Source of the DNA: Bolinopsis microptera
Taxonomy: Eukaryota; Ctenophora; Tentaculata; Lobata; Bolinopsidae
DNA: 60,000 nucleotides
Direction of reading: 5' to 3'
Assembly (NCBI RefSeq): GCF_026151205.1
Contig: NC_087077.1
Span: 8,921,983 to 8,981,982, forward strand
Shown here: positions 14,201-58,680 of the stretch, in pieces
Layout: every line of letters begins with the position of its first letter
How positions within the stretch are numbered: position 1 is the first letter of the stretch
Translations under genes and position numbers: made by a program
Notes under the pieces: generated by a model
The model's database searches: none
What the model was told of the DNA's origin: nothing
The model's input: only the letters and a program-made list of their open reading frames with translations

Positions 14201-17200
14201 TCCCACGGCATAAAAAACTTATCGGTAATGTTATCTGAATTTTATAATCGCTAGGCTTCTGAACTTCTGATAAATCCTGACATGTAATATATTTTGTTTT
14301 AAAAACCCGAGGGCCACCCATAAGGGCTTTGAAACCGGTTTATTGAATACGATATAATATACAAATAAACTGTAATAATATCGTAACATTCATGTCGATA
14401 CTAACTGAAATAATATAATCTGTAGGTAAAATAATAATACTGTCACATAATTAAGATATATGATATAATAAAATAAATGTCTCTTTTATTTCCACACTAA
14501 TTCTCACACCAAGCTTTAATTCACACACCAAAACTTTAAATTTTATCAAATTACAAATGTCTTAATATGTACGTCTCTTATCTTTAGTTAAAAAGTCAGG
14601 GGTGCAGCCGTTGTACTTCAATTAAAATAATTGATCACGCCGGAACACGATGTTATTTTATCAAAATCAGCTACCCGTGAGAACTGGAACAACCAAAACC
14701 AGTTGACCAAGATAAAAACTATAAATAACCTGTTTCCTCCAAATTACTGAGAAGTAGGCCCTCTCGCTACAGTTAATCTGTATTGATTTGTCGAGTGTCC
14801 AGCTGATTGGGTAATACCCGATGGGTATCCTACTTACTAATACTATGTACCATAGTGCATTCAAAGCATGTTTAGATATCTGAGTTAGGAGAAGTGTCAG
14901 GAAAGCACCTGGCTGGTTGTAGAGAGAGAAGTTCAGCGATATTAAAGAAGCATTATAACGTTTAATAATTACCATTCTACCATCTTGGATATATTTTAAT
15001 GATTCGAAACATCTAAGCGGCTAAATATAATCAGCATATTTTATTGCTTTCAGCATGATGATACCTAATTTTAGCGTCATCAAGATTTTACCTATTGTCT
15101 GGCACGAAGGTTGCTTGTCCCAGTCCCAGGTCCCATCCTCCAGACATGTGATAGTGTGAGAGCCAGTGTTCACGTGACCAGATCTACACTTTACTTCCAG
15201 GGTACTTCCAGGGATCGGAGGATACTCAGGGTCAAGGTCCGTGTTTGAAAACGTTGGAGTGTCGCATGTTACTGAAAGAATGTGAATTAGAATAAGGGAA
15301 ATTCCAGAGTTTGACTTCCCTTTTTTTTACAGTTTTACCTGTTTGACTTCCCTTTTTAAGTACAAGAACAGGAGCTTCTACTATACAATAGAAAAATGTT
15401 CCCATCCCTAATACAGAACCTTTTTCATTTTACCTGATGATCTGTAGAAGATTGTTGGTGAAGGAGGACTGCCACTCTTGAACATAAGATAAGATGAATC
15501 TCTGGTGAAGGCAGCCTGACATATATCTGAGAAACTTGTGTACTCAAAGCTCCAAACTTCAACTTTGTTACATTCTATCTTCAGATTAGTGGGTGTTTTG
15601 AATATGATCCAAGTTCTGTAGAAATGAGCTGGAACGTTGGTCATTGTGAAGCCGTCTTCTCCGTACCCACCATTACAATCTGGGCTTAACCAGATACTGA
15701 ACTGGTTAAACTTGAATGACATCGAGAAAACCATTTCTCTTGATGCGTCAGAGAACTTAATCCAGAGCTGAGAGTTGTCGTTATCAGCCCAAGTTCTAAG
15801 TTGAAGTGGAGTTGTTTCAATGTCAAAGTGAACGACTTCTGTTAATTTAGCTGCTTTCCAATCTGAGATGTGAATAAATTAAACATCAGGGATTGATTGG
15901 AAATCTAATATAGTTTGAGTATAATAATGGGACAATAAATAAGTTTTCTGATCTTAAAGAGTTCATCTTAAAGTTAATCGTAGTTTTACCTGATGCTCTG
16001 TACTGCTCAGCAGCTTGTCCGCTGTTATCCACAAAGAACATCTGAATAGAGGGTTGGTTGAACGCTGTGCATTTGATGTCTCCTTTAACAGAATCACTGT
16101 AAGTGTACTTCAAGCAAAACTCTCCGTTACACTCAATAATCAACTCTTTAGATGTCTTGAAGACTGTCCAAACAACTTCAGTTGTTGCTGGTTCCGGGTC
16201 AAAAAATGCTTCACCTGGGCCGTTACAATCTGCCAACCATGCGCTGTTGTCCTCGATTACTATCGCCAACGAGAATACATCAAGGAATTCAAGGTTACTT
16301 ATACTTATAGGAACTGCTATGGTTCCTTTAATCCAGACATATTCGCCAGGGGTCCCTTTAGCGGTGTTCGACTTCAACTCCAGTGGTACTTCATCCAGAT
16401 TATGGTCAAACTTTACTCCTTTTACAACGGTCTGCCACTCTGTAATAGTGACGGTGGTCAGGAATTTTATCAGCAGTTGTAAACACAGTAAACGTTGTTA
16501 CTATCTGTTAGAAAATAACAATATAAGATTGGACAGAGTACTGAACAACACGAGTATTTTTAAACGAGATGACTCACCTCTTGTTTCAGTAGCTTCCACA
16601 GAGAAAGCCCACAATAAGAGCAGAAGAATGAACTTCAGCATGAAATTTCACTTCTAGAATCTAAGAAAACGTTCGGATAATTTAAGAAAGAGACGTTAAA
16701 AAAATATCAAATTAAGGCAAATTTGTAAATAACATCTTGATAGATAAAAGGTACTTTCAATCATAGCTTTATTCACAAATCTGTACCGGTCTTAGCGAAC
16801 AATAAGAACAGGTGCTTTAACAATTACGTGTGAGGGATTTCTAATGCGTTTCAGATTTCGATGTGAACATCATTACTTCAAGTAAATAACATTATCGGCT
16901 TTATTACGCCCCCTGGCGGTACCGTTAATCATCATGAACAATATCAGAACAACAGTAGACATGACATATCGTGAACTGTGCGTGGTCGTGGTTCTGAATG
17001 AGGATTGCAGATGGGAGGCAAATTGAATTTAAACATAACATCGTCACGACGTTATGTTTAAATTCAATTTACATCGCGTCACAAAGCTTTGAAATCAACC
17101 ACAGTTCTACTGTCAATACGTGTCTACTTTGGGTACTGAACTGACTGCTGCGTAGTGTTGGCGTGGGCCACTGTAATTAAATCTCAAACGATATACTCTA

Positions 17201-20200: not shown

Positions 20201-23200
20201 AGTTATACTACTACTATATGACGATGATCTTGGTTTTATTCCTTAAAATGTAAATTTAAAGTTTATAAGACTTTAAAAGTTGATTGGTCTGATACCACAA
20301 CCTGATCATCGCGGATTGATAAATCACTCTAACGAAGAAAACACACTCAAAAAGCTGAATAGGAAAGCCTTGGGCTTTTGATGTTACTGCAGATTTGAGA
20401 TGATTTGTCGTAATGGTGGCCTCCTAATGAAAGCTAGTTACTAACCTACAAATAATGACCTGTAATTATTGAATATCTGAGTTGAAGGAATGTTAATCAT
20501 ACAAACAATGATACAGTGTGTGTACCTGAGCACAAGTCAAGCCATTGGGATACCTTGATTCGGGGGGGGGGGGGGGGGGGGGGGGGGGGATACCTTGCTG
20601 TTCGTACTTGCCCAAGAGGCGAGAGGCATAAATTTGCGCGCGGCGTGGCCAAGGTCATGCAATAAGATGGAACTGGTGCATAACTTTATCGCCACAACAA
20701 TTAATGTAATACCTGGGCAAATATCAGTGTTACAAGATTCTGTTTCTTTAGCATCTCCCTCGCACTCTGCACCACCATTTGATGGGACAGGGTTGGTACA
20801 AGATCTGCTTCTAGTTTGAGTTCCTCCACCACAGTCTACAGAACAGTCCGACCAGTCTTCATATTCGCTCCAACCGCCATCAACTGAGAGATAAGGATAG
20901 TAGTACATTTGTTTTCGGTAACCTAGGTATTGTCAACATTGAAAACGGATAACCATTAGTACCATGGCCATGGTTATCCGTTATATTAGATAACTCCCGC
21001 CATTCGAGCACTTGTACACTATTTGGCTATTTCTTGTGAAAAACGACGTTTTAACTTAAGTTTCACTCGATTGGCAAGTCTGATAGTGATAATGATATGA
21101 GATGTTAAGTTATGTCCAACTGGCAACTATTGATTAAGCTTCTTTTGGCCCCCTGATCCCTATTTTCAGCTGTGTAAACAAGTACCGGTCCACTGGTCAT
21201 CTAAACCCGGTGTTTGGTGAACAGTGAACTGCCATCTAGTGCTATAGCAATACTAATACATATAACATTAATTATTCGCACATCAGCTATTAACTATTTC
21301 CAAAATAACTTACCGTCAGGTTTAGATGTGGGTCCGGGAGTACAATCCACATTTTCTGGCCAGTCACAGGTCTTTAGTTTCAAGCTGAACTGAAACATTT
21401 ATTTTTTAATTGTGTAACCAATTGTTTATTGAGTTTTTATCAACATTTTTAACATGTTCCTTCTTTCTATCATATCTAGCATTAAGAAGCCTTTCACATA
21501 CCAGACAGCTAATTGTACTATTATACCAATGATCTGAGATCTCTAAAGTTGGTCTAGATTCACAAGATTTACAAGATTTACAAGATTTACAAGATTTACA
21601 AGATTTACAAGATTTACAAGATTTACAAGATTTACAAGATTTACAAGATTTACAAGATTTACAAGATTTACAAGATTTGAACTGACAAGGAGCCACTGAA
21701 CAATTAAAATCCATACACACACCAGAAACCTAGACGGCTAACTAAAATATACAAAATTAGCTATACTCAAAAACTTAAACGGTTTATATTAGTCTGTAAA
21801 CACCTTTGAGGATTGTATCTGAACTAGACAGGGCGTTCCACTAATCTCAACAAAATATTTCAATTTCTCAGTTTAGAGTAAAAAATCTTAATTTAGCCGT
21901 TCCTTATTTTTTCATGTGTTATATTGGTTGGGATCGTCTAACTTACTAATTGAACTAATTCTGTAGACAGTCATGGACTTATAAACAAGATAGATTTAGT
22001 TCTACGACACAATTTGATGTTTAAGTTAATAACAAATTGAATCTGTTCCACGTTAAACCACGTTGCCATAAATGAGAATAAGTAGGAAATTTCGGATAAC
22101 AAATAGATTAAATACCTCATACATACTACTATACACAAAAATAGGATATCACAATTTTAAGCACGCCGAATCAAAATGAAATACAAGACCATGTTAAATA
22201 CATGTGTATAATGATACACATGTACAATCACCAGCAATCACCAGCAACTGAAAGCGACACTTAAATTAGGTAATAATAAAAAAAGATAAGTCTCTTACCA
22301 CTAATACGCCGGCACAGTTCATATGATGAGCCTGTCCTGAGGAACACGAGTAATACTTGGAACAGTCCTCTGGGTCCCTGAAGAGTCCGGCAGCTGGCGG
22401 ACATGTGTATCCGTAGATAAGGGCCGGCATTAAGCCGAGGAGAAATAGTTTCATATCTTATAACGAGAAGTTTTGTTATGATCTCTGCATCATAAAGAGT
22501 TATTACAAAATTTGTATTAAATTTTTAAATTTTTAATTTATCGTGTGATGGCACTTTTTTCCCTTTTTTTTTCTTCAGAGAGCAGGCTTGCCACATAGGG
22601 CCTGTTGTTCCGAACTTTTATGCAAGGTGCTAGGTTGTGGTACACACTCAACTATAAGATAATCTGAGAGATACTGTGTGACAATGCTAAGAATGTCGTA
22701 GTGAGAGAAAGTTAACTGTCGATAAATTCATGCGAGTTCAAATTGTTGTGATGGGTGACATGATAATGACTGATAAGAGAAAGTTTTCATGTCAATTGTG
22801 CCATAATCCATAACAGTATGATGACTGTCAAAGTGTCGACCACTAGGTACTTGGACGAACAAGTGTACTCGAACAAGTGTACCCTAGCCGCTAGGGCAAA
22901 AAAGTGAAATGCACAGTCAGCATTTAAAAAAAAAAATAGGCCAAGAAATAGGAGTTTTAGAGCTCAAAATTTGGACCCCCGAGTGATGTCAAAAACACGA
23001 ATTAAATTGGTATTAATAATTATTTTAGTCTCTTGAGTCTTGACACCATTTTAGGGTTATACGGGTTCCTGCTGGTGTTTGTAATCCTTATGAAATTTAA
23101 AGGTGTGTAGTCGTTATCCTCAGATTTTTGGTCAATTATAATCGTTTATCGCTAAGCCCTGAGATTTCTCCCATTCAAATGCAAGGCATGAAAACTATCA

Positions 23201-26200
23201 ATGTTATTTATATCGGTTGTTGTATTATCCTCTCCACTTCAGTTTGATTTTATACTAGAAATTTAATGCAGCGTTAATTGTCCAATTACTTAAATTCTTG
23301 ACTGCTGAACGTTTAAAAAGTGTAGTACTTTGTACAGAAACATTGTGACAGCTCAGTACCAACCAAAATAGTAACCAGCCTACCATAGTAAAATATGGTA
23401 GAGGCAAGAAACAAATGCAGTAATTTCAACACGAATAGTAAATACAGAACAGTAAAAGGACTATTTATATACAGTTGATCCAGTACGTGGCTAGACTGCG
23501 ATTAGTCTGCATGCTCATGATTTAAGTTGTTCTTTCTGTGTCATTAGAGGCGTCAGGACAGCACCATTAACATTGCAGCCCTTCCCTGGCCAATGTCAAT
23601 ACCTGCACTGGACTACTAAGATCAGTACTTATAATGCTGGACCTCTTACAAAATAAAAGCCTTTATCTACTGCAGAAGGGAGAAGGGTGCATATTGGGTC
23701 TTTAGTCTTTACTACTAACGATCATAAGATTTTAGATCAGCACAGTAGAAGTTGTGGTCAGACAACTGTTAACTGTTTGAAGGCTCATGATGTAGGTTGT
23801 TATTTTGGTGTGTCGTTAGAGAGGCAGTAGGAAAATACCATTGTATATTTATTTGTATAGAAATTGACGCACCAAATACAAGGTATTATAATACCTTGTA
23901 TTTGGTGCGTCAATTTCTACTCGTGAGAGCGAAAAAAAGCGGTATATTTATATCACCGTTTACCATGAATTTTGCGATGTCTCTTGTTTCTAGAAATGTG
24001 GATGGAATTGAATTACGGAATTCAAGCACGGATAAATTTATAATAGGAGAAAAGGCAGGTATTTTCTTGGCAAGTATTTTCTAGCTCCGTCACGTTTCTG
24101 CCGGTTATTTTTACAGTTACAAAATAAAAATGCCAATGGTGCCCTTGAAGATTTGGATATCTGAGTTTGAGGAAAAGTTAATATCATATTTATTAACAAC
24201 GGTTTGCACAGAGTACCAATGGGTTGGATCATTGGGTTGCCTTGATTGACGATGTCAATCCCTCGCGGCCCGCAGCTCTGCCAAGAACGAGAATCATGTA
24301 TTGATGCGCGATGTGGTTGGGACTGGGTAGTGCAGTGACCTACTGACTTTCCCTTAAATCAGGCTGCGCCATAGGGTTAGGACTGTGTCCCTGGATGTAT
24401 CGAAATTCAGATATTTGATTTTATAAAACACTACTGGGTTTAGGTAAATTGTGAGCGGTCGCGAAGAGATTAGGAATAGTGTACCTATTTTCTGGCACGA
24501 AGGTTGCTTCTCCCAGTCCCAGGTCCCATCTTCCAGACATGTGATAGTGTGAGAGCCAGTGTTCACGTGACCAGATCTACACTTCACTTCCAGGGTACTT
24601 CCAGGGATCGGAGGATACTCAGGGTCAAGGTCCGTGTTTGGAAACGTTGGGGTGTCGCATGTTACTGAGAATGTGTTTTTGAAATAAGGGAAATTCCAGA
24701 GTTTTTACATGACCTAATTGACTTATGACGTTCCTTTTTAAAAACAAGAACAAGAGCTTCTACTATACATTTAAAAAATGGCCCCATCCCTAATACATAA
24801 CCTTTTTTATTTTACCTGATGGTTTGTAGAAGATTGTTGGTGAAGGAGTACTGCCACTCTCGAACTTAAGATAAGATGAATCTCTGGTAAAGGCAGCATG
24901 ACATATATCTGAGAAACTTCTGTACTCAAAGCTCCAAACTTCAACTTTGTTACATTCTATCTTCAGATGGGTTGAAGTTTTGAATATGGTCCAAGTTCTG
25001 TAGAAATGAGGTGGAACGTTGGTCATTGTGAAGCCGTCTTGTCCGTATCCAGTGTTACAATCTGGCCCTAACCAGATACTGAACTGGTTAAACTTGAATG
25101 ACATCGAGAACACTTCCGCTTTTGAGGCGTCAGAGAACTTAATCCAGAGCTGAGAGTTGTCGTTATCAGCCCAAGTTCTGGGTTGAAGTGGAGTTGTTTC
25201 TATGTCAAAGTTAACGACTTCGTCTAATTTAGCTGCTTTCCAATCTGAGATGTGAATAAATTAATCATCAGGGATTGATTGGAAATATAAAAAAATATGA
25301 CTTTTGACAGCTACCAGTAACTGAAGTATAATAATAAGAAGATAACTAAATATTCTGATCCTAAAGAGGTCATCTCAAAGTTAAACGTAGTTTTACCTGA
25401 TGCTCTGTACTGCTTAGCGACTTGTCCGCTGTTATCCACAAAGAACATCTGAATAGAGGGTTGGTTGAAAGTGTTGCATTTGATGTCTCCTAGAATAGAG
25501 TCACTGTAAGTGAACTTCAAGCAAAACTCTCCGTTACACTCAATAATCAACTCTTTAGATGTCTTGAAGACTGTCCAAACAACTTCAGTTGTTGCTGGTT
25601 CCGGGTCAAAGAATGCTTCCCCTTGGCCGTTACAAAATCCCAACCATGCGCTGTTGTCCTCGATTACTATTGCCAACGAGAATACATCAAGGTCATTTAT
25701 ACTTATAGTTATAGGAAGCCCTATGGTTCCTTGAATCCAGACATATTTGCTAGGGGTCCCAGTGGCGGTGTTAGACTTTATCTCCAGAGGTACCTCATCC
25801 AAGTTATGGTCAAACTTTAATCCTTTCTCAACGGTCTGCCACTCTGAATAATATATTGAATATTTAATAACGATAGCTTGGAAATACATAACATTAAATA
25901 ATTGTAGAGCTACCATTATTTAAAAAAACACAATATCGTGGAAATCGAGGGATAATTGAAATGTTTTTAAAGATATTTGATAACCTCTGGATTCAACCAC
26001 TGTTGTCAAAAGAAACAGCAGTAAAAGTATTAACATCGTTTGGTCAATACTTTTCTTCGTGAAGCTGAACCCTATCTGGAAACAATTCATGTACTATGAA
26101 ATAAACGAGTTGGATTATATTTAATATATACAGTGACTAAGTTAATTTATTAGTTTTCAAACTGTTTTAAGAAACAGTGGCTATTTAATTAAAATGATAA

Positions 26201-27633
26201 TATCATCTGCATGCTGAATCGAATCAAACCCTGCCGGGTTAGTCATGATGTTGAAGACATGAAGCTGTAGATCAAACTAAAATTAACTACAAGTTGTAAG
26301 AAACGCCCGGCCACTACCCTTAGCAGACCAGCCGTAAGAAATTATACGTTTATCAGACGGTAATTACTGACTATGAAACAGCGGTCACTTTTATTCGTCC
26401 CAGGTAACTTTTCTCTGCTGTACGTGCCTCGTAACTCCATAGCATATAATCGCAACCTTTTACGTGTTACTCGACAACTACAAAATTTCCAATTATCCAA
26501 CCCCCGCACCGGTGCAACGTTATTTATTAACTGAGCAAAGTTAATGACTTGAACTGTTCGTTTACTGCCACTGTGGACATGATCATTTTGTAATTAGATC
26601 TTTACTGCGTAAATCGTTTGCCTGTCATGTAGTTATTAATAAATCTAGACATAACGAACATGACGATAGTTGTTGATTTCAGACATTCGTTTGGGTTAAA
26701 GAGATGGTAATTTTCTCGGGTAATAATAATTGTGATTATCTCCCACGTTGTTCTTGACATGCAGTGCATAAACAGTTGGGGTGACTGATTGAAAGTGCAG
26801 AGTTTAATTTTCTGATTGTCGTGGACTTACCTTCAGAGATCAAGTGTTGCTGCCACGTGGATCGTTACGTTATTAATACTGAATAATTCAAACTTTATTT
26901 TCCAAGCTTTACCAGCTTTTGAGCTTTAGGGTACATATAAACTGGTTTTCCAATTTTATAAAATCAAAGTCTTAAAATTCAACCACTATTAAATTCTGCT
27001 CTGACAGGTTAGGTAATAGGAACCAGCGCCTTTAAAATACCTAAATAAGTCAATCTTAAAATAATCTAAAAATAACTTCAATTTAATGAAGATTTTTAAA
27101 GAATATTTAACGAGTGAACTTACCTCTTCTTATTATTTCAGGTTATGTTACAGGGTTGTCACTTTACAGTACAGCAGAGGAATGCACTGGAAGGATAACT
27201 ACTGCTACCTCTTTCAACACCGAATGCTCGGTCAGTATCTACATTCTACATACTTTACCCTGCCCAAATTTTTCTAAGTCCCAACTTAACACCATCTTCG
27301 TTCAATTCATTTCTGGACGGTTTTCTTGTTACATCATGATTAAGATTAATTATTATCTGTCGGACAGATGTCGCCCAATCATAAACTAATTCATAAACTG
27401 ATTTTACCTCTGTTCTGTTTTGTTTTTAGTTAGCTGTACTGATAGGTCATGTTCAGGTATCGTTCCCAATCGTTGGAGCAAGTCCTGACGTCCACTCCTT
27501 TATATCAATGAAGGAAAAAGAAGAGAAGAAAAAGACCGACGAATCTCAAGATAAACGATCTTTCCTTGCTAAATATTGGATGTATATTCTACCAGTATTT
27601 CTACTGCTCATGATGAGCATGGGTGGACAATAG
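11218..27633 (+). CDS. EMC10: ER membrane protein complex subunit 10
   Basis: Six exons join in phase: 11218-11305, 11500-11594, 11730-11813, 11975-12092, 27142-27230 and 27430-27633 (stop tag), giving 225 residues. A signal peptide ([16 protein letters not shown]) is followed by a luminal beta-rich domain with family landmarks: LYYIRVPHK, a Y-V-(x)n-V-R-A-C-S-L-(I/V)-E-S-x-L motif, [13 protein letters not shown] and a conserved cysteine in AEECTG. A charged linker precedes the C-terminal membrane anchor [23 protein letters not shown]10 is a luminal/membrane subunit of the EMC, which inserts and folds multi-pass and tail-anchored membrane proteins in the ER. Intron 4 (12093-27141) is 15 kb and hosts four antisense genes. 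The last exon is the first unit of a three-copy tandem array, so transcripts could use alternative copies. Confidence 0.93.
12545..13420 (-). CDS. Histamine N-methyltransferase-like SAM methyltransferase
   Basis: Intronless ORF of 291 residues, close to the length of vertebrate HNMT (292). It has a class I methyltransferase fold: motif [18 protein letters not shown] (about residues 54-70) for SAM binding, the acidic strand-2 motif YVVEPNAEH (82-90), [16 protein letters not shown] (126-141) and [11 protein letters not shown] (151-161). The HNMT resemblance is in the early KMLSVG-G-G...VVEPSAEQ-like segment and the H-S/M-L-Y motif. A small-molecule N-methylation role is a family inference; the real substrate is unknown, and such genes are often multicopy in non-vertebrates. 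The ORF is complete, with a start at the only reasonable ATG. It lies antisense in EMC10 intron 4. Lack of introns fits a retrocopy or an ancestrally intronless gene. Confidence 0.82.
   Translation of the reverse strand: MSNSEINLETTPPLTEEEYARDWSVFEDVSEEYEVMARIANEFIIENKFNENPVKMLSVGAGRGNFEEKLVREHGLKIEYIYVVEPNAEHVSELHSTLGSLGTEHNVSSSFFNTEFQFEESKCDKFDFILFAHSLYGFEDPHRAVLYATKFLKPGGKMLIFNQGEGATAAIFSYLMDRSDPKIFSPSKCIGDHSLTAEKIISQLEEDPSGLIISTIRERSYEDVDDFVQRVDTPGRNYKIDFSLQAEYGRLSEEAKDHIYKMVVENCDVIQGRYQWRHWCVGIVVSASVQV
13421..15091. other. Intronic spacer without supported gene
   Basis: This is part of EMC10 intron 4. Minus-strand open frames at 13634-13918 and 13848-14321 look like translated repeat DNA with recurring 'attctagcaatg' and 'gaatctggaac' words. 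The 3' exons of the neighbouring sushi gene, if any, should lie here, but none could be fixed. Confidence 0.4.
15092..16641 (-). CDS. Secreted double-module plus sushi protein, copy A (3' end open)
   Basis: Four exons: 16641-16578 (signal peptide [17 protein letters not shown]), 16439-15990, 15862-15434 and 15271-15092, together 374 residues. Every intron is phase 1. Exons 2 and 3 each encode one module of about 145 residues, and the two modules are related: both open with a Trp (EWQTV / DWKAA) and share W-x-[VI]-F-K-T-x(3)-L-x-I-E-C-N plus a later cysteine. Exon 4 encodes a sushi/CCP domain (VTCDTPTF...VKCRSGH...[17 protein letters not shown]). The protein is probably extracellular and ligand binding. 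I do not recognise the repeated module; a lectin-like beta-sandwich is only a guess. Exon 4 ends in an apparent donor, so a further exon probably exists downstream. Close paralog of 24485-26036. Confidence 0.8.
17020..17070. repeat. 25-bp inverted repeat
   Basis: Two 25-base arms with one mismatch are separated by a single base (centre 17045), built around aattgaatttaaacataac. It can form a strong hairpin; function is unknown. Confidence 0.85.
17597..18500. repeat. Dispersed element, long copy (904 bp)
   Basis: It begins ggctggtcatacaattaaaa and ends with tatgtaacgttttatgcgacctt. The first ~130 bp and last ~115 bp match 19744-20021, which lacks the interior. The open frame on the minus strand at 18081-18443 shows no recognisable domain. 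It is probably a nonautonomous mobile element, with the second copy an internal-deletion derivative. Element class is undetermined. Confidence 0.75.
18690..19480 (+). pseudogene. LINE 3' remnant: RNase H and Cys-rich tail
   Basis: Two frames carry pieces of one retrotransposon ORF. 18763-19000 encodes an RNase HI-like segment ([14 protein letters not shown] ... [21 protein letters not shown]), and 19154-19376 encodes a CPMC-type Cys/His tail ([19 protein letters not shown]). The region between is out of frame with stops, so the ORF is broken. RNase H followed by a C-x2-C...H-x3-C tail is typical of Jockey/CR1/I-type LINEs. Neither the reverse transcriptase nor the endonuclease is present. It lies between two copies of the 17597/19744 repeat in EMC10 intron 4. 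Confidence 0.82.
19744..20021. repeat. Dispersed element, deletion derivative (278 bp)
   Basis: This copy keeps the two ends of the 904-bp element at 17597-18500 (start ggctggtcatac, end atgcgacctt) but misses about 630 bp of interior. It has the same orientation as the long copy. Confidence 0.75.
20562..20589. repeat. Poly-G tract, 28 bases
   Basis: An uninterrupted run of G is flanked on both sides by the short direct repeat ataccttg (20550-20557 and 20590-20597). The tract could form a G-quadruplex. Its length is likely to be unreliable in any assembly. Confidence 0.9.
20713..22454 (-). CDS. Secreted chitin-binding (CBM14) plus thrombospondin type 1 protein, 3' end open
   Basis: Three exons join cleanly: 22454-22299 (phase 0), 21389-21314 and 20883-20713 (phase 1 at the end), 134 residues so far. 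Exon 1 encodes a signal peptide ([15 protein letters not shown]) and a peritrophin-A/CBM14 start ([21 protein letters not shown]). Exon 2 completes it with the hallmark CDWPENVDC. Exon 3 encodes a thrombospondin type 1 repeat ([25 protein letters not shown] ... [20 protein letters not shown], written here in part). The product is presumably an extracellular protein that binds chitin, as in a perisarc or cuticle. The last exon appears to end at gcccag|gtatta. A short candidate terminal exon after 20524 is uncertain because a poly-G tract lies just before it. Nested antisense in EMC10 intron 4. Confidence 0.82.
21562..21678. repeat. 9-bp microsatellite, 13 perfect units
   Basis: Thirteen consecutive copies of acaagattt lie in the first intron of the CBM14-thrombospondin gene. 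On the minus strand they read as a Lys-Ser-Cys run, but splice-compatible exons exclude this region from the gene. Confidence 0.95.
22915..23075 (-). repeat. Dispersed repeat, inverted relative to 36540-36725
   Basis: Shares, in reverse orientation with 36540-36725, the segments agcaggaacccgtataac, aaaatggtgtcaa, ctcaagagactaaaataatt, gggggtccaaat and gagctctaaaactc-like text. It is an old dispersed repeat with no coding capacity seen. Confidence 0.75.
23858..23919. repeat. Perfect 62-bp palindrome
   Basis: 31-base arms (tagaaattgacgcaccaaat... and exact complement) meet at 23888/23889 with no spacer and no mismatch. Surrounding sequence is unremarkable intron. It may be a recent foldback insertion or an inverted duplication artefact. 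Confidence 0.92.
24485..26036 (-). CDS. Secreted double-module plus sushi protein, copy B (3' end open)
   Basis: This paralog of 15092-16641 has the same four-exon, all-phase-1 structure: 26036-25985 ([16 protein letters not shown] signal peptide), 25843-25397, 25244-24816 and 24664-24485, 369 residues. Exon 2 is one codon shorter than in copy A; exons 3 and 4 have identical lengths in the two genes. Module landmarks are conserved ([39 protein letters not shown]), as is the sushi domain ending in DWEKQPSC. The exon-1 donor (gttatc) is weak, but phase and alignment to copy A support it. No stop is reached after the sushi exon, so a 3' exon is missing from the model. Likely role: secreted binding protein of unknown ligand. 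The two copies flank the CBM14-thrombospondin gene. Confidence 0.8.
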
Positions 27634-28312
27634 TTAACTTTTATTTTACAAGTTGACACAACGTTTATCAACTGAGACGTTCGGTTTTGTTATACGAGTT
27701 TACGGGTATTTTATTTTCTGATATAATTGTTGCTTTAAATGCGCTGTTTACCGTTAGCTTTGTGGACCTTAAATCAGTGAATTCTCCTATGCCTGACATA
27801 AAGGAAGTGATCGAATCCAGAATCTAACCGAAAGTGTTTGCGCCAAAGACAGATAACCCAAGTATGAAGCAGCACCTTCCATTTCTGAATTTAATTCTTG
27901 AAATTTAGTCTATTTATGCTTATATATTTCTTTAATAATTTGAGATAAGTTGTTATTCGTCTGAAATTATTTGAAGCGTATCAATTATTAAAACTTAAAC
28001 GGTTTGCCGTGTGGTGGAAAATCTATCCTAAAAAACCCCAAGACAAATCCAGTATGCGCGCGATATGTTGGTACGTTAGATAAGACCATATTGTGTCCTA
28101 TATAATTATAACTTATGATTTGATCGATGGGTAACTAGCCTGGAATATTATTTCGAGAAACAAGGGGTATACAGTGAATTCAACCGATATTGAACTTTTG
28201 TTGGGTTGCAGACACGACATCCACTGGCACTACTTCCCTCCTTGGGTGACTGACCAAATTTAGTTAGCTGAGGGCAGTGGCGTTACGTTGCCTGTTGACG
28301 CCCCCGCCTTCA

Positions 28313-28447
28313 TTTATATCAATGAAGGAAAAAGAAGAGAAGAAAAAGACCGACGAATCTCAAGATAAACGATCTTTCCTTGCTAAATATTGGATGTATA
28401 TTCTACCAGTATTTCTACTGCTCATGATGAGCATGGGTGGACAATAG
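28313..28447 (+). pseudogene. Duplicate of EMC10 terminal coding segment, copy 2
   Basis: It encodes the charged linker and membrane anchor of EMC10 ([12 protein letters not shown] ... YWMYILPVF ... GGQ, stop) with no visible change from copy 1. The duplication starts inside the exon, so the copy lacks the acceptor and the first 69 coding bases of the true exon. It is not an independent gene, and it would be used only through a cryptic acceptor. Confidence 0.85.
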
Positions 28448-29124
28448 TTAACTTTTATTTTACAAGTTGACACAACGTTTATCAACTGAGACGTTCGGTT
28501 TTGTTATACGAGTTTACGGGTATTTTATTTTCTGATATAATTGTTGCTTTAAATGCGCTGTTTACCGTTAGCTTTGTGGACCTTAAATCAGTGAATTCTC
28601 CTATGCCTGACATAAAGGAAGTGATCGAATCCAGAATCTAACCGAAAGTGTTTGCGCCAAAGACAGATAACCCAAGTATGAAGCAGCACCTTCCATTTCT
28701 GAATTTAATTCTTGAAATAGTCTATTTATGCTTATATATTTCTTTAATAATTTGAGATAAGTTGTTATTCGTCTGAAATTATTTGAAGCGTATCAATTAT
28801 TAAAACTTAAACGGTTTGCCGTGTGGTGGAAAATCTATCCTAAAAAACCCCAAGACAAATCCAGTATGCGCGCGATATGTTGGTACGTTAGATAAGACCA
28901 TATTGTGTCCTATATAATTATAACTTATGATTTGATCGATGGGTAACTAGCCTGGAATATTATTTCGAGAAACAAGGGGTATACAGTGAATTCAACCGAT
29001 ATTGAACTTTTGTTGGGTTGCAGACACGACATCCACTGGCACTACTTCCCTCCTTGGGTGACTGACCAAATTTAGTTAGCTGAGGGCAGTGGCGTTACGT
29101 TGCCTGTTGACGCCCCCGCCTTCA

Positions 29125-29259
29125 TTTATATCAATGAAGGAAAAAGAAGAGAAGAAAAAGACCGACGAATCTCAAGATAAACGATCTTTCCTTGCTAAAT
29201 ATTGGATGTATATTCTACCAGTATTTCTACTGCTCATGATGAGCATGGGTGGACAATAG
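29125..29259 (+). pseudogene. Duplicate of EMC10 terminal coding segment, copy 3
   Basis: Same content as the copy at 28313-28447, with the open frame and stop intact and no splice acceptor of its own. It precedes the only complete left flank of the MITE. Confidence 0.85.
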
Positions 29260-29898
29260 TTAACTTTTATTTTACAAGTTGACACAACGTTTATCAACTG
29301 AGACGTTCGGTTTTGTTATACGAGTTTACGGGTATTTTATTTTCTGATATAATTGTTGCTTTAAATGCGCTGTTTACCGTTAGCTTTGTGGACCTTAAAT
29401 CAGTGAATTCTCCTATGCCTGACATAAAGGAAGTGATCGAATCCAGAATCTAACCGAAAGTGTTTGCGCCAAAGACAGATAACCCAAGTATGAAGCAGCA
29501 CCTTCCATTTCTGAATTTAATTCTTGAAATAGTCTATTTATGCTTATATATTTCTTTAATAATTTGAGATAAGTTGTTATTCGTCTGAAATTATTTGAAG
29601 CGTATCAATTATTAAAACTTAAACGGTTTGCCGTGTGGTGGAAAATCTATCCTAAAAAACCCCAAGACAAATCCAGTATGCGCGCGATATGTTGGTACGT
29701 TAGATAAGACCATATTGTGTCCTATATAATTATAACTTATGATTTGATCGATGGGTAACTAGCCTGGAATATTATTTCGAGAAACAAGGGGTATACAGTG
29801 AATTCAACCGATATTGAACTTTTGTTGGGTTGCAGACACGACATCCACTGGCACTACTTCCCTCCTTGGGTGACTGACCAAATTTAGTTAGCTGAGGG

Positions 29899-29941
29899 CA
29901 GTGGCGTTACGTTGCCTGTTGACGCCCCCGCCGAAAAAGCG

Positions 29942-29975
<34 letters not shown>

Positions 29976-30187
29976 TTTTGGTGCCCCTCCCTAAAATTGG
30001 ACAAATTAGGTGATTTTAGAGGATACGCCGGGTAAAATCTCTAAAAAAGTGTGTATCTAGAGCAAAACGCGCAGTTTTGCTAGTACTTTAGTTAAGTTTT
30101 TGAAATTGTCCCACATTCAAACGACGATTTGCCCCCCCCCCCCCTCCCCCGCACAGCGGGGCCCTTTGTTAGTTCGTTACGCCACTG
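29899..30187. mobile_element. hAT-like MITE, 289 bp, with poly-C core
   Basis: Left end cagtggcgttacg and right end cgttacgccactg form 13-bp terminal inverted repeats with one mismatch. The interior contains 34 C (29942-29975), the segment ctagtactttagttaag and a second C-rich run (30132-30150). The left flank is gctgaggg (29891-29898), but the right flank here is ctcgcacc, so this right end does not show a matching duplication. The matching gctgaggg instead follows a second right end at 38167. Confidence 0.75.
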
Positions 30188-32710
30188 CTCGCACCCAGTT
30201 TTTTCTCGACCTTTGCCTGTCTAGATCCATAGTGTTTTGTTGCACGTCATCTGTTTATACGTACTGGAGTCACCCAGGACAGATTAACACACAATAGCAG
30301 CACCTCGAAAAGGATGTGATTCTTCATCACTTACTACTACTATAACTAGTACTATGGTCGTTGGATTTGGAATAGGGGCGGTTCTAGATTCACGATCACT
30401 ATTCCCTGAGATTATAAATATTCTCTTGTTGCTTGTACCATCACATATAATTTCAATAATTTTACAATATCGCATTATTGTTATATCAGTTATAATAGCA
30501 GCTACACATGTTTGATGGATTAAAACACTTTTATGACGGTGCTGTTAGAATAACAAAATATTTACGCTGTAAAACAGTTAACATGTTATATTAAGATCAT
30601 CAAGAATAATATATTAATATTATAACACTCACGGTACCAAACTGAGTAAAAAATAACAACTTTCCAGTGTCTTAACCATAAACTTGACATGCACGCTGCA
30701 ACCGGACCCCTTTTGATCGTGGCCGGCTTCGCGTGCGCGAGAGGTGTGCAACGTGTACTTGTACTTGTAGCAACCATAAACCTGACTCCAAATGGAAGTT
30801 CACAATTTGATTTGTAGTGACCTTGATTGACGATATATCAACCTTTCCAGATCGTTGCTCTTATCTGCAAAGCAATGATCTCGAAGCGATTAAGCAAGAA
30901 TGATAGTTCACGCAGCGCGTCAAAGCGGCGACGTCCTCCATGCTCCAATTCCAAGCTACTCCAACTCCAAGTAGTGACCATAATTTTATAACAAACATTT
31001 TATCTAAGAAGTCATCCTATCAAGCTTCAATTTTTACTTTTCTGTGTTGTTTCCCGGAAACATAATCTGATCAGTCTCGATCTCTAGGTATGGAATGTGA
31101 TAATGTGATAGACATGGGCGGATATAACTATACGTATAAATTACAAGCCCAGTTCCAGTGACACCAGGTCAGACTTATCAACTTAACTAGTGTAACCCGG
31201 CCTACGGCCGGGATTTCACTGCCGCAGTTAAAAAGGGTAGGAGTAATTACCCGCTGAGTCAAAACCCGCATTAGGTGACCCAATAGTTTCTTCAACAATA
31301 ATCTCATAATCAGTTATTTCTTGTGGATAATTAAGTCATTATTAGCCATGAGGCACCACACTCCATGATCATAAGGTCTGAACACCGAGTATTACACCTC
31401 ATCACTCCCGTCTTGAACCGCTTTCTATTTTTATTTAAATTAACCCTTGTTAACTCCGCACCACACCCGCATATTATATTTGAAAACACGCATAACATTG
31501 TCGTATGAACTCTCTCTCTCTCTCTCTCTCTGCAGTCCAAACAGACCCCAAACACTAACAGTCCCCCCTCCCCTAATAAGCTTAAGGTATAACATTACAG
31601 CGGATCTTCCGGGCTAATCCAATTATGACGCAGCTATAACATATTACACAGTAATGAGAGAGAGAGAGAGAGCAAGCCCCGTAACTCTTGCCGTTCTGCT
31701 CACGCAATTTTATGTAACATTTGTGGTACAAAACCATCAATTAAACCACTTACCATCGGCCGATTTTTAAAAAAATTTCCTATGGGCTTCATCAGAGTTT
31801 TGTCGACACTATACCGAAAAAATCAGTCCCGTAACTCTTATAACACGAGGAAATATGGTCAGAACTGAACAACAACAACAACAATTTGATACGAAAAGTG
31901 GCATGCAACGTATGTCAAACAACAATGAACAACCACACTCAAAGACTGAAGATTCAGGAGGACTCTGTATCCCAGAAATTTCCGATACGAGATAGGGGAC
32001 GGGTTCTATAAACAATTAACATCAACAAAATTCAATTTCCCTGGGAAGTTAGTTAGTTGCATTGGACGAATTTATTCGATTTAGACTCGTGCAAAATGAT
32101 CTTATGAACCAATTTAATTTAGCCACGAAATACGTAACAAAAATGTGACAAATTTCCTGAGCTGAAGTGGACTGATCATGGGGAGGGTATATAATTATAA
32201 TAGGGGATACCTACCTTTGGTACCTTGGGTTCGTTTTAGTTGGTTTATTTCCCTTGATTTCCCAATCACCTAACCATATAATTGTACGAAAGTATCCCAC
32301 TTTCTATTGGCATTAAACCGTTATAGTTATACAACACGTATTGTTATATGTAAGTCTATGTATCATGTATGATGCTGTAACTTTAATGGCTTTTACTAAT
32401 TCGCTCGCCCAAAAATTTTACGTGACTTTGGTTTTTATGGTTTTGCCTTTTCACAAGAATTTTCTTAAAATTTGGGCGAGCGATTTAGTAGGAGCGAACT
32501 TTAATTACATTTACACTGCAACTGTTGAGCTTGTTTTTATAGAAAAATATCTAAATAGTGGCATTCAGGAGCCATCTTAATACGGTTACATTTGTTTATC
32601 CATGCTTTATTTGTTCACTTGGTTTTGACCTTAATAATTAAATTATTTGCTATTTCCAACGATGATTGGTCAGTTCACAAAGTGAAAATGCTGACCAGTT
32701 TTTAACTTTA
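30188..32710. other. Gene-free repeat-rich interval
   Basis: No supported gene. The interval contains a hairpin cccggcctacggccggg (31197-31213), CT and GA microsatellites (31510-31531, 31656-31672), and an inverted pair around cgctcgcccaaaaatttta (32402-32420 with 32466-32483). The ORFs here have no recognisable domains. Confidence 0.5.
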
Positions 32711-32842
32711 AGCGAACGACCGATTTCAATTTCGGTATAATATTGCATTTGCGGACGGTTATTCAAATTAATATCATTTCCTTTTGTTTGGGAAGAGAGA
32801 CACTGGCAGATGTCCACTCTACCCATGATTATAGGTTTTGGT
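32711..32842 (+). repeat. Dispersed repeat copy 1 (upstream of Ly6 gene)
   Basis: Runs from agcgaacgaccgatttcaat to tctacccatgattatagg. It matches 34710-34855 in the same orientation and 34348-34494 inverted. It is more diverged from the latter two than they are from each other. Confidence 0.85.
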
Positions 32843-33400
32843 CAAAAATTAATAATTGATTCATGATAATTTTTTTATTATCATTGTCCAAGTTACGGCG
32901 AAATGACAGGCTAAGCTGTAAGAGTAAGACTAAGTGTAAGGGCAACTGTAAGCGCCGGCCAGTATAACTTTTTACTTATTTAACGGCCGCTAAGCCACTT
33001 ACATTTTTTATAATCGCGGTCTTTCCTTCTCCAGGCTCAATGAAACTTGTGACAGGGAGTGTGATTACTAATCGCACTGATTTTCTGAAATTGGAAATGT
33101 ATACTGTAACATCGTGTTCCGAAATTTTCTGCCCTTACGCTACTAGTACTAACAGTTTCCATTATTTTCATTTAAATTTAATTGATCCGGACCTGACACA
33201 TGATGTAAATTTGTAATGATCTTTTTAATTATTTGAGATTATCACACCCGAGCGTGATAATCTCAATAACAATCTGAATAATATCGCTCCCACTAAACCT
33301 TCATTTAAGGTTGTTTGGAGTCAGTTTTTTAAAATTAAATCGAAATAATCAGAGAATCTTAAACTGATATTTATTAACAATTTATTTACAGTAGCTGAAA

Positions 33401-33919
33401 ATGAAGATAGCCATAGCTATCATAATAGTGGCAATGGCGGCACAAGCTCAGGGGCTTCGCTGTCAAACTTGCACGGACCATGACCAGGCAGGAGCAAAAA
33501 TATTCGGCGAAGCAGGCAGCGTGCAAGAGGAACCGTGTACAACAACAAGTGTTATTGATTGTGTCGAGGATCGTAATATCAATATGATGCCTGATATGTG
33601 CGCAAGCCTTTTCCTGACCTACTCGTCCATTGTGGATGGAATACGCACTGAGAGCTATACTAGAAGTTTTGGTTGTGGTATTAAGGAAAGTATGCTCGAA
33701 GCGGAAATGTGTGGGGGTAATGAAGATTATTTTAATAATGCTGCTGAAGGATTGGCTGATTTTACCTGTCGGATGGACGTGTGCGAGGATGACGGGTGCA
33801 ATTACTTCTTGCAGGACGACAAGAAGAACGAGGAAAGTGACGTCGAGAGATATGTATCATCGGAAACTCGAGCGGAGACATCGATCTTTCTCGTCGGAAT
33901 CTTCTCATTCCTTATTTAG
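33401..33919 (+). CDS. Ly6/uPAR-type three-finger surface protein
   Basis: Single coding exon of 172 residues. An acceptor-like tttacag at 33385-33391 just before the ATG suggests an intron in the 5' UTR. A signal peptide (residues 1-18) is followed by mature protein beginning LRCQTC. Ten cysteines (21, 24, 46, 54, 67, 92, 104, 123, 128, 133) include the C-x2-C start and the closing C-x4-C-N motif (CEDDGCN) that define the Ly6/uPAR fold. The C-terminus is a short hydrophobic tail (IFLVGIFSFLI) after a polar stretch, as expected for a GPI-anchor signal. Predicted role: cell-surface protein; ligand unknown. Spacing between cysteines is longer than in classic Ly6 proteins. It stands between inverted copies of a dispersed repeat, inside the interval bracketed by the hAT-like ends. 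Confidence 0.85.
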   Translation: MKIAIAIIIVAMAAQAQGLRCQTCTDHDQAGAKIFGEAGSVQEEPCTTTSVIDCVEDRNINMMPDMCASLFLTYSSIVDGIRTESYTRSFGCGIKESMLEAEMCGGNEDYFNNAAEGLADFTCRMDVCEDDGCNYFLQDDKKNEESDVERYVSSETRAETSIFLVGIFSFLI

Positions 33920-34347
33920 AAACAATTACTTTTCGCAATTTTTCAAAACATTCTTTCTTATGTTGAATTTATAACTAAATAGTAAAAACATTCATAAATA
34001 TGATTAAACATTAAAAGGAAATGCAAAATTGAACAGGGATTGGCAACGGCCGTTTAATTTTATTCGTTAGTTAGAAACACCTTAAAACGCAAATTCGTTG
34101 ACACTCAATTCCGTATGGACATTTGCTTGAAAAGTGATTGCACCGTACCATTTAATTAAACTTTTCAACGCAAACGAAGACCTTTAAAGATTCAATTTTT
34201 TTGTAAAAAATTCTGTCGCGTGTTAAAATCAGTGTAGTGTAAAATGTTTATAATCCCATCGTTTAGTGATCATATTTTATAAAACGTTTTTGGTCATCGC
34301 ATGTTTACAATTATAATTATCAACTTATATTTTTGTTCTATATACTA

Positions 34348-34855
34348 ATTTTACCAAAACCCATAATCATGGGTAGAGTGGACCGCTGCCAGTGTCTTTC
34401 TTTCCCAAACAAAAGGAAATGATATTAATTTGACTGACCGTTCTCAAATGCAAAATGATACCGAGAATGAAATCGGTCGCTCGCTTTTCCCATTAATTCA
34501 CGGCTTACGAATTGTAATAATTTTCGATTGATTACATGTCAATCAGATGCTGTAAAAATCTCTTTGGGTTGCGTTCGGGTCGATACCTAGTATTTCGGGG
34601 TAAGGGTGGTAGTTATCACTTATTGAATTAGCTGAAGTTTATTGAATCTTTATTGCCGAGTACAGCTGCCTTTGGGTAGTTCTTCTTAATCTATTACAAT
34701 TGTAAATGAATGGGAAAAGCGAGCGACCGATTTCATTCTCGGTATCATTTTGCATTTGAGAACGGTCAGTCAAATTAATATCATTTCCTTTTGTTTGGGA
34801 AAGAGAGACACTGGCAGCGGTCCACTCTACCCATGATTATGGGTTTTGGTAAAAT
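34348..34855. repeat. Foldback element with ~147-bp arms
   Basis: The left arm 34348-34494 and right arm 34710-34855 are reverse complements with few mismatches, separated by 215 bp. The outer ends read attttaccaaaaccc and gggttttggtaaaat. The arms are also related to 32711-32842. No ORF is present. Confidence 0.9.
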
Positions 34856-37028
34856 ATCATCTCTTTTTGATTATAATGTCATATCAGGCCCAGGGTACTT
34901 TATAAAGTCGAAATATAAACTGATATCTTCATTATAATAAGGAGGAAGTTTCAACGATTTCGAAATTTTTCCTTTAAAAACATTTCCTTGTGTTTAGGTA
35001 AGCATATCAGTCCATCACTGACTGAATATACCACTTAATACTCATTCAAGTTGACATTAAATTCATATATAATGACATTAAACTGTCGTGGCAAAGCAGA
35101 ATTTGTTGGAAATCACGAATGAGCAAAATTTTCACCTTTCGCACGTGCAAACTTTGAGCGGACGTTGCATGCGCATCCAATATTGAATCGCCGTAAATTT
35201 TTGCATGTAATCATTTTATATATAGCTTGATAAGCATGCAAAGTTTCAAAGTATTTCAAGAAGAACTGTAATCACAACGGCACTCTAAAGTTGACAGAAA
35301 ATGACGAAAACAGCAATTTTCAGTGATTTTAGCAATTTTCTATCAATTTGGGCGTGTCCCCACGTGTGCAACTTTTCGATTTTCAACTTTAAAACTAGCC
35401 TAATGCACAATTTATACCTATAGGAAGCAGAACTGAGCTCCACAACCCAAGGCATGGCCCAACACCAAAGAATACTAAATCGCAAAATTGACGTTTTTAT
35501 AAAATAATTCTTCAAAAAAGCACAAACTTCAATGACGAATATCTTTATGAAGGAGCAAGCTAGAAAAACTTTCCGGTAGATTTTCAGAATGCTTGAACAA
35601 TTATCTAAGATGAAATTTTCCTCAGATTTTGAATAAAATTACTCCTTAATGGGTTAAAATTAATTTTAAAAGTTATTACTTTGTCAAAAATCAAGTTTTA
35701 AAAACGGTTAACTTGATGACGTCATCAAGGGGTGTTTATGACGTCAAATAAATTTTGTATACAATGTAAACTAAAGTGTAAACAATTATTTGCAAGAGCT
35801 GTGGTCGGAAATGGCTGTATCTTTTATACTTTTGAATCTATGGACACTTAAATACAAGCTACAATTGACTGGCAAAGCGTCTATCCCTGAATATATATGT
35901 ATGTATATCTGTATATGTCCCGACAATCTGTCGTAAAACAGGGGTTCTAGAAAACCCATTTCCCGATGCTCCTGAAACCTGAAACTTTTTTTGCAGTCAA
36001 TTTGGTCAACGTCTAGACGCCCTGAAAAATTTCAGATCTCTAACTCAATTTTAACATGGTTTTTAGGGCACCTGAATATGGCGATTTTGGGTTTTTTACC
36101 GAATTTCGTATAACAGTGCTGGCGAGTATTTTATGCAAATTTCTTAAAAATCTGAACATAACTATTTTTTATTCCTGTCATCTTTGACATCAAATTAGAA
36201 TGTTTTGAACTAAAAATAAATCTGCTGAACGACTTCCGATGAGTCTTAATGCCTGGAAAACTCCTGCCGGAGGCGGCCGGAGTGCACGCTTCGCGTGCAC
36301 AAAAGAGGCTTGTAACGTGTACCAAAGGGGGTATAATAGTAAAAGGGGTATAATAGTAAAGGGGGTATAATAGTAAAGGGGGTATAATAGTAAATGGGGA
36401 ACATAGTATACCCACAATAAATGCAACGGTCGTGCTTGCCAGCACTGTGATTTAAAACTTCTGTAATTTCATTTCTGTTTCAGTTATGCATTTGATTTTT
36501 GGTATGCGTATAGAAAATCGATACGGCTTTAAAATGGCTAGCAGGAACCCGTATAACTATAACCCTAAAAGTAAAATGGTGTCAAAACTCAAGAGACTAA
36601 AATAATTATACCTATTTATAATTTAATTTTATTTAATTCGCGTTTTTGACACTACTTGGGGGTCCAAATATTGGGCTCTAAAACTCTTATTTCTTGTCCA
36701 ATTTTTTATTTTTTCATGCTGATTTGGAGGCCATTAAAGCATTTGGCCCAGTCAAAAACGTTTTAGTTTTATATCTTTTACGGTTTTTTGCGGAACGTCG
36801 TGTTAAAGTTGATGCCGTGGTGTCAGTAAAATGGTACGGATCCATATATATCGTCTCGCTTTATATATACTTATAGTAAGCTCACTCACGAGACTCAGTA
36901 GGAGTGATTTAACTGCGAGGGACACCGACAATTGAGGCTAACGAATTAGCCTCATCACTTTTAAAAAAGAACTTTCTCTTGTTACGTTCATGATATCCAA
37001 TTCCAAGTTGCGAGTATAATCCATTGTG
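34856..37028. other. Gene-free interval with short repeats
   Basis: No exon is supported. It includes a 16-17-bp tandem repeat (ggggtataatagtaaa, four units, 36327-36394) and, at 36540-36725, the plus-strand partner of the dispersed repeat at 22915-23075. Confidence 0.55.
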
Positions 37029-37650
37029 ATTATACTTGATCGAGATCTAAGTTTAAATATTCGAGGTGAAAATGAGGCTAACCACTTTTTGAGAGGGTGA
37101 AATGAGGCTAACAAGTATACTTTTGTGTATATTTTCGAGTAGGTTCGGTATTGTGACTATCTAATATGTTAACAATAAATATTGATGTGTCCTCTTCAAG
37201 CTCAACATTTTAGAAATCGCCGAGTCTACTTGTAGGAGGCCAAAATGAGACTAATAAATTAATTATAAATAATAATAAATAATTCGACCGCATTTTAACT
37301 TTAATGTACATTGTACGGAAACAGGTTAACAGCTCACAATTTATTTGATGTCCATGTTGCACATGAAATTTCTTGGCATTATACTTAATCGGTATCTAAG
37401 CTTCAAATATTCGAGGAGAAAATGAGACTAACCACCTTTTGAGAGGGTGAAATGAGGCTAACAAGTATACTTTTGTGTATATTTTCGAGTAGGTTCGGAA
37501 TTGCGACTATCTAATAGTAATATGTCAACAATAAATATTGATTCATCCTCTTCAAGCTCAACATTTCAAAAATCGTTGAGTGTACGTGTAGGAGGCCAAA
37601 ATGAGGCTAATAAATAATTCGACCGCATTATTTAACTTTAATGTACGGGA
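37029..37650. repeat. Tandem dimer, period about 349 bp
   Basis: 37029-37377 and 37378-37650 align along most of their length (gaaatgaggctaacaagtat, tattttcgagtaggttcgg, caacaataaatattgat, gtaggaggccaaaatgag). The motif aatga(g/a)(g/a)ctaa recurs several times within each unit and also just outside it, near 36940 and 37750. Confidence 0.85.
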
Positions 37651-37849
37651 GCATGTAATAGACCCACTATACAACTTGTAATTGTAATTGTAGCCCGAAG
37701 GTTATTGATACTTTATCGGAACTTATGTGAGGTTGGATTGAGGCTACCTTCCCTCCTTAAGGCAAAATTGAGGCTAACACTAACAGATTCACTACGCAGT
37801 CAAACGTCCATTGCACAAATTGTCGTGAGACTACTTTGTAGGTTTACAT

Positions 37850-38084
37850 TTACAACCTACCAGGACGCGCGCCGAGTTGGACTCGTCGACGGTCCTGGAA
37901 TATTCAATATTACTATTATATATATATATGCCTATGGAACAGATATTTTACGAGTTGTAGCGCGATGCACTACTGGGTCGCGCGCGCATCAAATAATGCT
38001 TCTCTTCGGTTAGGTAGGTAGATCGGCGAGATGCGAAGGATTGACATCGTGAATCAATTTTACGAGTATCACCCGTTAACTAGT
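37850..38084. repeat. GC-rich dispersed repeat
   Basis: It contains gacgcgcgccgagttggact and tttacgagtatcacccgtta, both seen again at 58026-58100, 58508-58545 and 58640-58672. The middle part (gcgcgcatcaaataatg...gatgcgaaggatt) recurs at 55604-55690. It abuts and seems to truncate the hAT-like right end that follows. Confidence 0.75.
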
Positions 38085-38167
38085 ACTTTAGTTAAGTTTT
38101 CGAAATTGTCCCACATTTGAACGACGATTTGGCGCCCCCCTCCCCGCCGCCCTTCGTTACGCCACTG
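38085..38167. mobile_element. hAT-like MITE right end, followed by 8-bp TSD
   Basis: Matches 30080-30187 from ctagtactttagttaag to cgttacgccactg with a shorter C-rich stretch. It is followed at once by gctgaggg (38168-38175), identical to the 8 bases before the left end at 29899. The left half of this copy is missing. Confidence 0.75.
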
Positions 38168-38175
38168 GCTGAGGG

Positions 38176-55351: not shown

Positions 55352-55382
55352 GTGGGTGCAAAATGACTGCAACGATCACAAT

Positions 55383-58009: not shown

Positions 58010-58680
<671 letters not shown>

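Follow-up and report, generated by a model that had tools for sequence, protein, structure and literature searches.

Can a pair of short hAT-type elements carry a host gene between their outer ends? This question is raised by a stretch of 60,000 nucleotides from the ctenophore Bolinopsis microptera (contig NC_087077.1, positions 8,921,983 to 8,981,982, hereafter the window), which is part of a 20.9-Mb contig in an assembly of 264.65 Mb and 232 contigs. An interval of 8.27 kb (8,269 bp) in the window holds a Ly6/uPAR-like gene, and is bracketed by two ends of a miniature inverted-repeat transposable element (MITE) and by two copies of one 8-bp target site duplication (TSD). Our analysis suggests that this interval is most likely a natural hAT macrotransposon with the Ly6-like gene as its passenger.

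Structure of the interval

The left terminus CAGTGGCGTTACG (29899-29911) stands immediately 3' of GCTGAGGG, and the right terminus CGTTACGCCACTG ends at 38167 and is followed by the same 8-mer, as had been claimed from the sequence alone (Table 1). The sequence-only reading had also stated that the nearer right end, at 30187, lacks the matching flank, and this end (30175-30187) is indeed followed by CTCGCACC and not by GCTGAGGG. The TSD-bracketed composite structure is confirmed. The left end of the interval differs by one base from the family consensus CAGTGGCGTAACG of the aligned copies. GCTGAGGG occurs six times in the window, where 0.48 occurrences would be expected. Three of these stand before a left end (28267, 29079 and 29891), one follows the right end, and two have no MITE end (5208 on the minus strand, and 38967).

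The interval starts with a complete MITE (M1) and finishes with the truncated right half of another one (R2), both in direct orientation, with MITE positions 182-288 occurring in each of them. A macrotransposon is defined by two copies in direct orientation that share one TSD on their outer ends and lack it at the inner ones; both features are found here, the inner end of the second MITE being missing. R2 starts exactly at the 3' end of a repeat resembling a short interspersed nuclear element (SINE), which we call repeat X. This repeat is abundant, the last 22 bp being found in 1,986 exact copies that end in ACGAGTATCACCCGTTAA, and TTAACTAGTACTTTAGTTAAG is unique to the window, with three one-mismatch places elsewhere. 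The start of R2 at the exact end of such a common repeat is what one would expect of an older neighbour that was brought along, and not of a fresh repair joint. The nested insertion in repeat X (37838-38079) is flanked by TTTTACGAG, and a second copy of the repeat lies in the window at 58511-58671. The idea that repeat X is a TTAA-specific transposon was dropped, as some of its copies have 8-9-bp duplications (by eye). M1 holds a tract of 34 C (29942-29975), and the interior next to its right end (30188-31175) has one other reported match only, of 118 bp at 75% on C7, among the best 40 of 1502 candidates.

Table 1. Features in and around the bracketed interval, in positions of the window
Feature	Position	Strand	Remarks
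EMC10 last coding exon	27430..27633	+	exon edges by eye; 3' part inside triplication unit 1
812-bp tandem triplication	27499..29932	+	unit runs from the end of the last EMC10 exon through its 3' flank and GCTGAGGG to 34 bp inside M1
Left TSD copy GCTGAGGG	29891..29898	.	junction read in the sequence
M1, complete 289-bp MITE	29899..30187	+	left end is the outer end; own right end 30175-30187 without TSD
Interior beside the inner right end	30188..31175	.	similarity search
Dispersed repeat	31175..31640	.	93-97% identity to about 40 other listed places
Ly6/uPAR-like 172-aa single-exon open reading frame with stop	33401..33919	+	intact frame
Foldback-type MITE of another kind	34343..34860	.	154-bp arms, 98% complementary; edges by eye
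SINE-like repeat X (TTGTAGG...CCCGTTAA)	37838..38079	+	edges by eye; nested insertion at about 37957-38060
R2, truncated MITE right half	38080..38167	+	MITE position 182 to the right end; right end is the outer end
Right TSD copy GCTGAGGG	38168..38175	.	junction read in the sequence

The MITE family and its target site duplications

Both ends belong to a family of MITEs of about 288 bp, which are short and non-coding and occur in many copies of like size, with 2,587 exact end 13-mers and 558 exact matches to a 27-base core. The ends read CAGTGGCGTAACG and CGTTACGCCACTG in most of the aligned copies and are short terminal inverted repeats of the hAT type; hAT ends often begin with CAG. Outside the window, 27 of the 29 other two-ended elements among the first family loci have a perfect 8-bp TSD, the length expected of hAT elements, and the remaining two agree in 7/8 (L012) and 2/8 (L005) positions; L002 was dropped from this count as it has only one end. 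The earlier description of the ends as hAT-like is supported by the 8-bp TSDs, by the CAG start and by the hAT transposase domains in this genome, where the hAT dimerisation domain PF05699 was found above the cut-off in all 150 places scored (150 of 365 candidates); a comparison by eye over C1, 0-10.4 Mb, found no transposase of the family's own among them. At seven of the hAT transposase places, the open frames span 513-530 residues and score almost alike, a possible sign of recent activity.

We compared the 8-mers flanking the MITE ends in a set made of the first family loci and 80 of the first 100 end matches on C1, the 20 skipped being ten close plus/minus pairs. The set includes the left end and the inner right end of the window, and has 65 distinct left and 69 distinct right 8-mers, i.e. 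4,485 combinations. The left and right 8-mers are identical in 41 combinations, and all 41 fall within one element or its segmental duplicate. Three further combinations agree in 7/8 positions, two of them being single elements (L012 and C1:6423118) and one joining ends 2.27 Mb apart. Since all of the identical pairs are self-pairs, the shared GCTGAGGG indicates that the two outer ends either came in at the same time or make up the two halves of a single insertion. A target preference for GCTGAGGG was rejected, as it is used by no other copy read, the nearest being GCTGAGAC at L007; the many MITEs flanked by the same 8-mer that would have spoken against the sequence-only reading are thus not seen among the copies read.

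The 80 ends on C1 give 17 places with both ends and a TSD (16 with 8/8 and one with 7/8), one of which is longer than 1 kb. Three two-ended places have no TSD (C1:1621917-1622996, 3762978-3763292 and 10079516-10079953), and recombined or decayed pairs hence exist too. Fifteen left-end orphans on C1 were read: L175 and L182 have a diverged partner end with a perfect TSD, L170 and L184 have a partner with 6/8 agreement, and L173 is a fused tandem MITE. At C1:621-650 kb (L090-L099), MITE ends recur in two sets that have identical TSDs, at spacings of 25,037 and 16,613 bp, which suggests a rearranged segmental duplication.

Split MITEs in the same genome

A long TSD-bracketed interval may also arise from a single MITE. 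The element at C1:1641288-1650639 (L164; 9,352 bp, TSD TGCAAAAG) is a single MITE split near position 30-36 by an array of about 25 satellite units of 366 bp, about 9.07 kb in total, with the TSD of the MITE intact. MITEs with internal satellite arrays are known (PMC12628747, in its available portion); this element is of the same kind, while the interval in the window is not a tandem array. Two shorter examples, also with their TSDs preserved, measure 901 bp and 365 bp; each is a MITE that took up an insert, of about 610 bp in the first and about 77 bp in the second, and the inserts resemble nested elements with 7-8-bp duplications (by eye). Because the satellite-swollen MITE looks like a composite from outside, matching ends and a TSD are insufficient to identify one. 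The split MITEs L164, L165 and L168 consist of complementary halves that overlap by at most 8 bp, the arrangement expected when one copy is opened. The window does not show it, as its left piece is a complete MITE.

Origin of the interval

We lean towards the view that the interval moved as a unit, a composite hAT-type macrotransposon to which one MITE contributed the left end and another the right end. From the structure described above we infer a transposition event, its transposase and a donor site as follows. At the donor place, about 7.9 kb would have separated M1 from the right half of another MITE of its family in direct orientation, and this space would have held the Ly6-like gene and several repeats. 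Acting in trans, a hAT transposase would have brought the left end of M1 together with the right end of the other MITE, skipping the own right end of M1. The whole block would then have been excised and reinserted about 0.6 kb downstream of EMC10, with duplication of GCTGAGGG. The tandem triplication, which takes in the left junction and the end of EMC10 and has one of its breakpoints in M1, within the C-rich stretch, came later.

The interior speaks for cut-and-paste in the part that we searched. No second full copy was found for the stretches 30188-31640, 33380-34340 and 37640-38167 (2,942 of 7,892 bases, 37%), in searches that score the best candidates only. This fits cut-and-paste movement, as copying by repair should leave a donor. 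A search for other 8-kb copies sharing both ends and the Ly6 gene had been proposed with the sequence-only reading; as no second full copy of these three stretches was found, an 8-kb transposon family with further copies was rejected.

Two linked variants bear on whether M1 is one element. In the left half, a run of exactly five A within GAAAAAGC is found in 5 of 30 aligned copies (L004, L005, L008, L011 and L020), CCCGCACAG in the right half in 4 (L002, L004, L005 and L008), and both together in 3; M1 carries both. This suggests that M1 is a coherent MITE from its left end to the inner right end. The 30 copies are the best matches to M1, and the variant frequencies lean towards M1.

Several points weigh against macrotransposition. 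The evidence of the two variants is modest: outside the C tracts, the left half of M1 differs by 3 substitutions from L008 and equally by 3 from most copies, while L004 and L005 differ from it at 6 positions. The search for a donor copy covers 37% of the interior, best candidates only. The movement of the block is read from the end state in one assembly, and neither an empty site nor a haplotig was seen in the assembly with the flanks 26401-28308 and 38168 to about 39457, which are otherwise single-copy. The other long TSD-bracketed interval is a split MITE, so splitting is a live mechanism here. No other composite was found among the 80 ends on C1, of which fifteen left-end orphans were followed further, and no PF05699 place could be tied to MITE ends when compared by eye on C1, 0-10.4 Mb only.

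The first alternative is that one MITE sat at GCTGAGGG and that a later break in it, e.g. on excision, was repaired with foreign DNA. Through abortive gap repair or ectopic conversion, the left stump would have paired with another MITE, copied past the right end of that MITE and joined the surviving right half. Such a course yields both the identical outer TSD and the truncated right half. MITEs in this genome have taken in foreign DNA of about 9.07 kb, about 610 bp and about 77 bp with their TSDs kept, and repair errors are cited as a suggested capture route in the available portion of PMC3260210. It should however leave a donor, and a second full copy was not found in the three searched stretches. 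The known split copies have complementary halves, while the interval repeats positions 182-288 and its inner copy is complete. The right junction also coincides exactly with the end of a repeat, and the linked variants are modest evidence for assigning the left end and the inner right end to a single MITE. We regard this course as possible and rather unlikely.

Quite improbable, in our view, is the integration of a circular DNA. A circle with part of a MITE and the Ly6 block would have recombined through homology with a MITE already at GCTGAGGG, which would give two hybrid MITEs with outer TSDs. This would reproduce all of the junctions and leave no donor copy, and the many similar MITEs (see the core matches above) would offer partners. 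It needs the formation of a circle and an ectopic recombination against the one event of macrotransposition, and no direct evidence points to it.

A coincidence of unrelated MITE fragments with matching flanks, or a misjoin of the assembly at the tract of 34 C or at the tandem array, is very improbable: the array and the tract do sit at the left junction, and the two-ended intervals on C1 with no TSD tell us that an end pair is not always one insertion, but an 8-mer matches by chance about once per 65,000 pairs (by arithmetic), no unrelated elements match in the 4,485 combinations, on which a chance match of the flanks was rejected, and the searched flanks have no other copies and belong to a single contig of 20.9 Mb.

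The sequence-only reading had left the choice between a composite and a MITE split by insertion or recombination, and is partly supported. A composite, i.e. a macrotransposon, fits best by its layout, by the TSD on the outer ends only, by the lack of a second full copy of the interior in the searched stretches and by the linked variants, but proof is wanting. Split MITEs do occur in this genome, as complementary halves.

The Ly6-like passenger

The single-exon frame of the passenger gene is intact at 33401-33916 (33919 with the stop). Its 172-residue product has 10 cysteines and a terminal CN, with a signal peptide and a hydrophobic C-end recognized by eye. The closest relative, at C1:18.236 Mb, has 86% DNA identity over 759 query bases, with part of the coding region missing; other close relatives lie at C1:12.903 Mb, with an open frame, and at C8:2.975 Mb, and weaker ones on other chromosomes. 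Across four paralogs, eight of the 10 cysteines are conserved without exception, as is the terminal CN. The profile UPAR_LY6 matches one of these paralogs (E=0.0085) and the Quiver u-PAR/Ly-6 profile two (best 0.12), and the best profile match among the four is DUF7630 in one member (E=0.00049). The protein in the window has no profile match and no match in PDB, and its single-sequence fold is too poor to use (predicted local distance difference test, pLDDT, 36.8). The label Ly6-like is likely for this gene and not proven. The earlier naming of a Ly6/uPAR-type gene is weakly supported, by the cysteine pattern, the terminal CN and the UPAR_LY6 and Quiver matches of paralogs.

The possibility that the gene is the cargo of a small inverted-repeat element of its own was rejected (by eye), because the 3' homology in the paralogs L032, L033, L038 and L039 continues beyond the point matching 34344. 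The window has the foldback MITE where the shared 3' flank of the paralogs continues. Matches of the dispersed Ly6-like family are found on C1, C5, C8, C10, C11, C12 and others. We speculate that MITE pairs, including truncated ones, might carry entire host genes as composites and that the Ly6-like family might have been partly spread in this way, a quite improbable idea.

The tandem triplication and EMC10

The junction of GCTGAGGG and the left end that had been noted before is present, and the 812-bp tandem triplication in which it stands three times was overlooked. Unit 1 has two T more than units 2 and 3, which do not differ from each other. The triplication is later than the insertion, because each unit contains the TSD and the left end. 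Its junction joins the end of the last exon of EMC10 to MITE position 34 through a 4-bp filler, TTCA, and the last exon is contiguous through unit 1. The gene was identified by the Pfam domain ECM10 (E=3.4e-12) and by matches to EMC10 chains in PDB. The array as a source of the right-hand GCTGAGGG was rejected, as the right flank matches no unit sequence, and so was reversed-ends transposition as the origin of the triplication, the breakpoint being 34 bp inside the MITE and not at its end. The breakpoint at position 34 and the satellite insertion on C1 at position 30-36 fall in the same C-rich stretch of the MITE, which has long C runs in several copies and may be fragile, to judge from these two events.

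Other features of the window

Tandem repeats are found at 6930-8044 (51-bp unit, 21.8 copies), 21556-21678 (9-bp unit, 13.7 copies) and 58170-58455 (a 286-bp AG run). Two similar sets of open frames on the minus strand, at 15024-16497 and 24357-25919, suggest a local gene duplication; the first has a Sushi repeat (E=1.7e-7) and a sub-threshold match to macroglobulin MG3. A 556-residue open frame with a YADD motif at 53708-55375 (minus strand) resembles by eye the reverse transcriptase of long interspersed nuclear elements, with no Pfam match above the cut-off.

Comparison with known systems

The comparisons below rest on the available portions of the papers cited. In the Ac/Ds system of maize, the outer ends of linked hAT elements carry all that lies between them and leave 8-bp TSDs (PMC9910405). 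The interval in the window is alike in having two hAT-type elements whose outer ends share an 8-bp TSD. Excision and reinsertion were observed in maize (PMC9910405), while only the end state is seen here, and the outer elements of the interval are a 0.3-kb MITE and a truncated one.

The compound element Ds-l4-483 of maize has a complete short hAT-type element, several kb of foreign DNA that include a transcribed sequence, and a truncated duplicate copy that finishes with a terminal repeat and a TSD copy, over 7,344 bp (PMC3260210). The interval in the window has the same layout over 8,269 bp. The first element in maize is described as flanked by the TSD itself (PMC3260210), whereas the inner right end in the window has a different flank, and the family and the host differ.

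AgaP2-P12MITE of Anopheles gambiae has ends from two subfamilies, and its authors suggest macrotransposition (PMC1562414). It is likewise from an animal, but is a MITE of the P-element family, and the available portion of that paper mentions no host gene.

How excisive elements acquire host genes is poorly understood (PMC3260210). For surveys of such elements the lesson is that matching ends with a TSD are not enough to call a composite. Should the interval be confirmed, it would be a natural hAT macrotransposon by which an intact gene was relocated, its ends supplied only by a 0.3-kb MITE and by a fragment of another.

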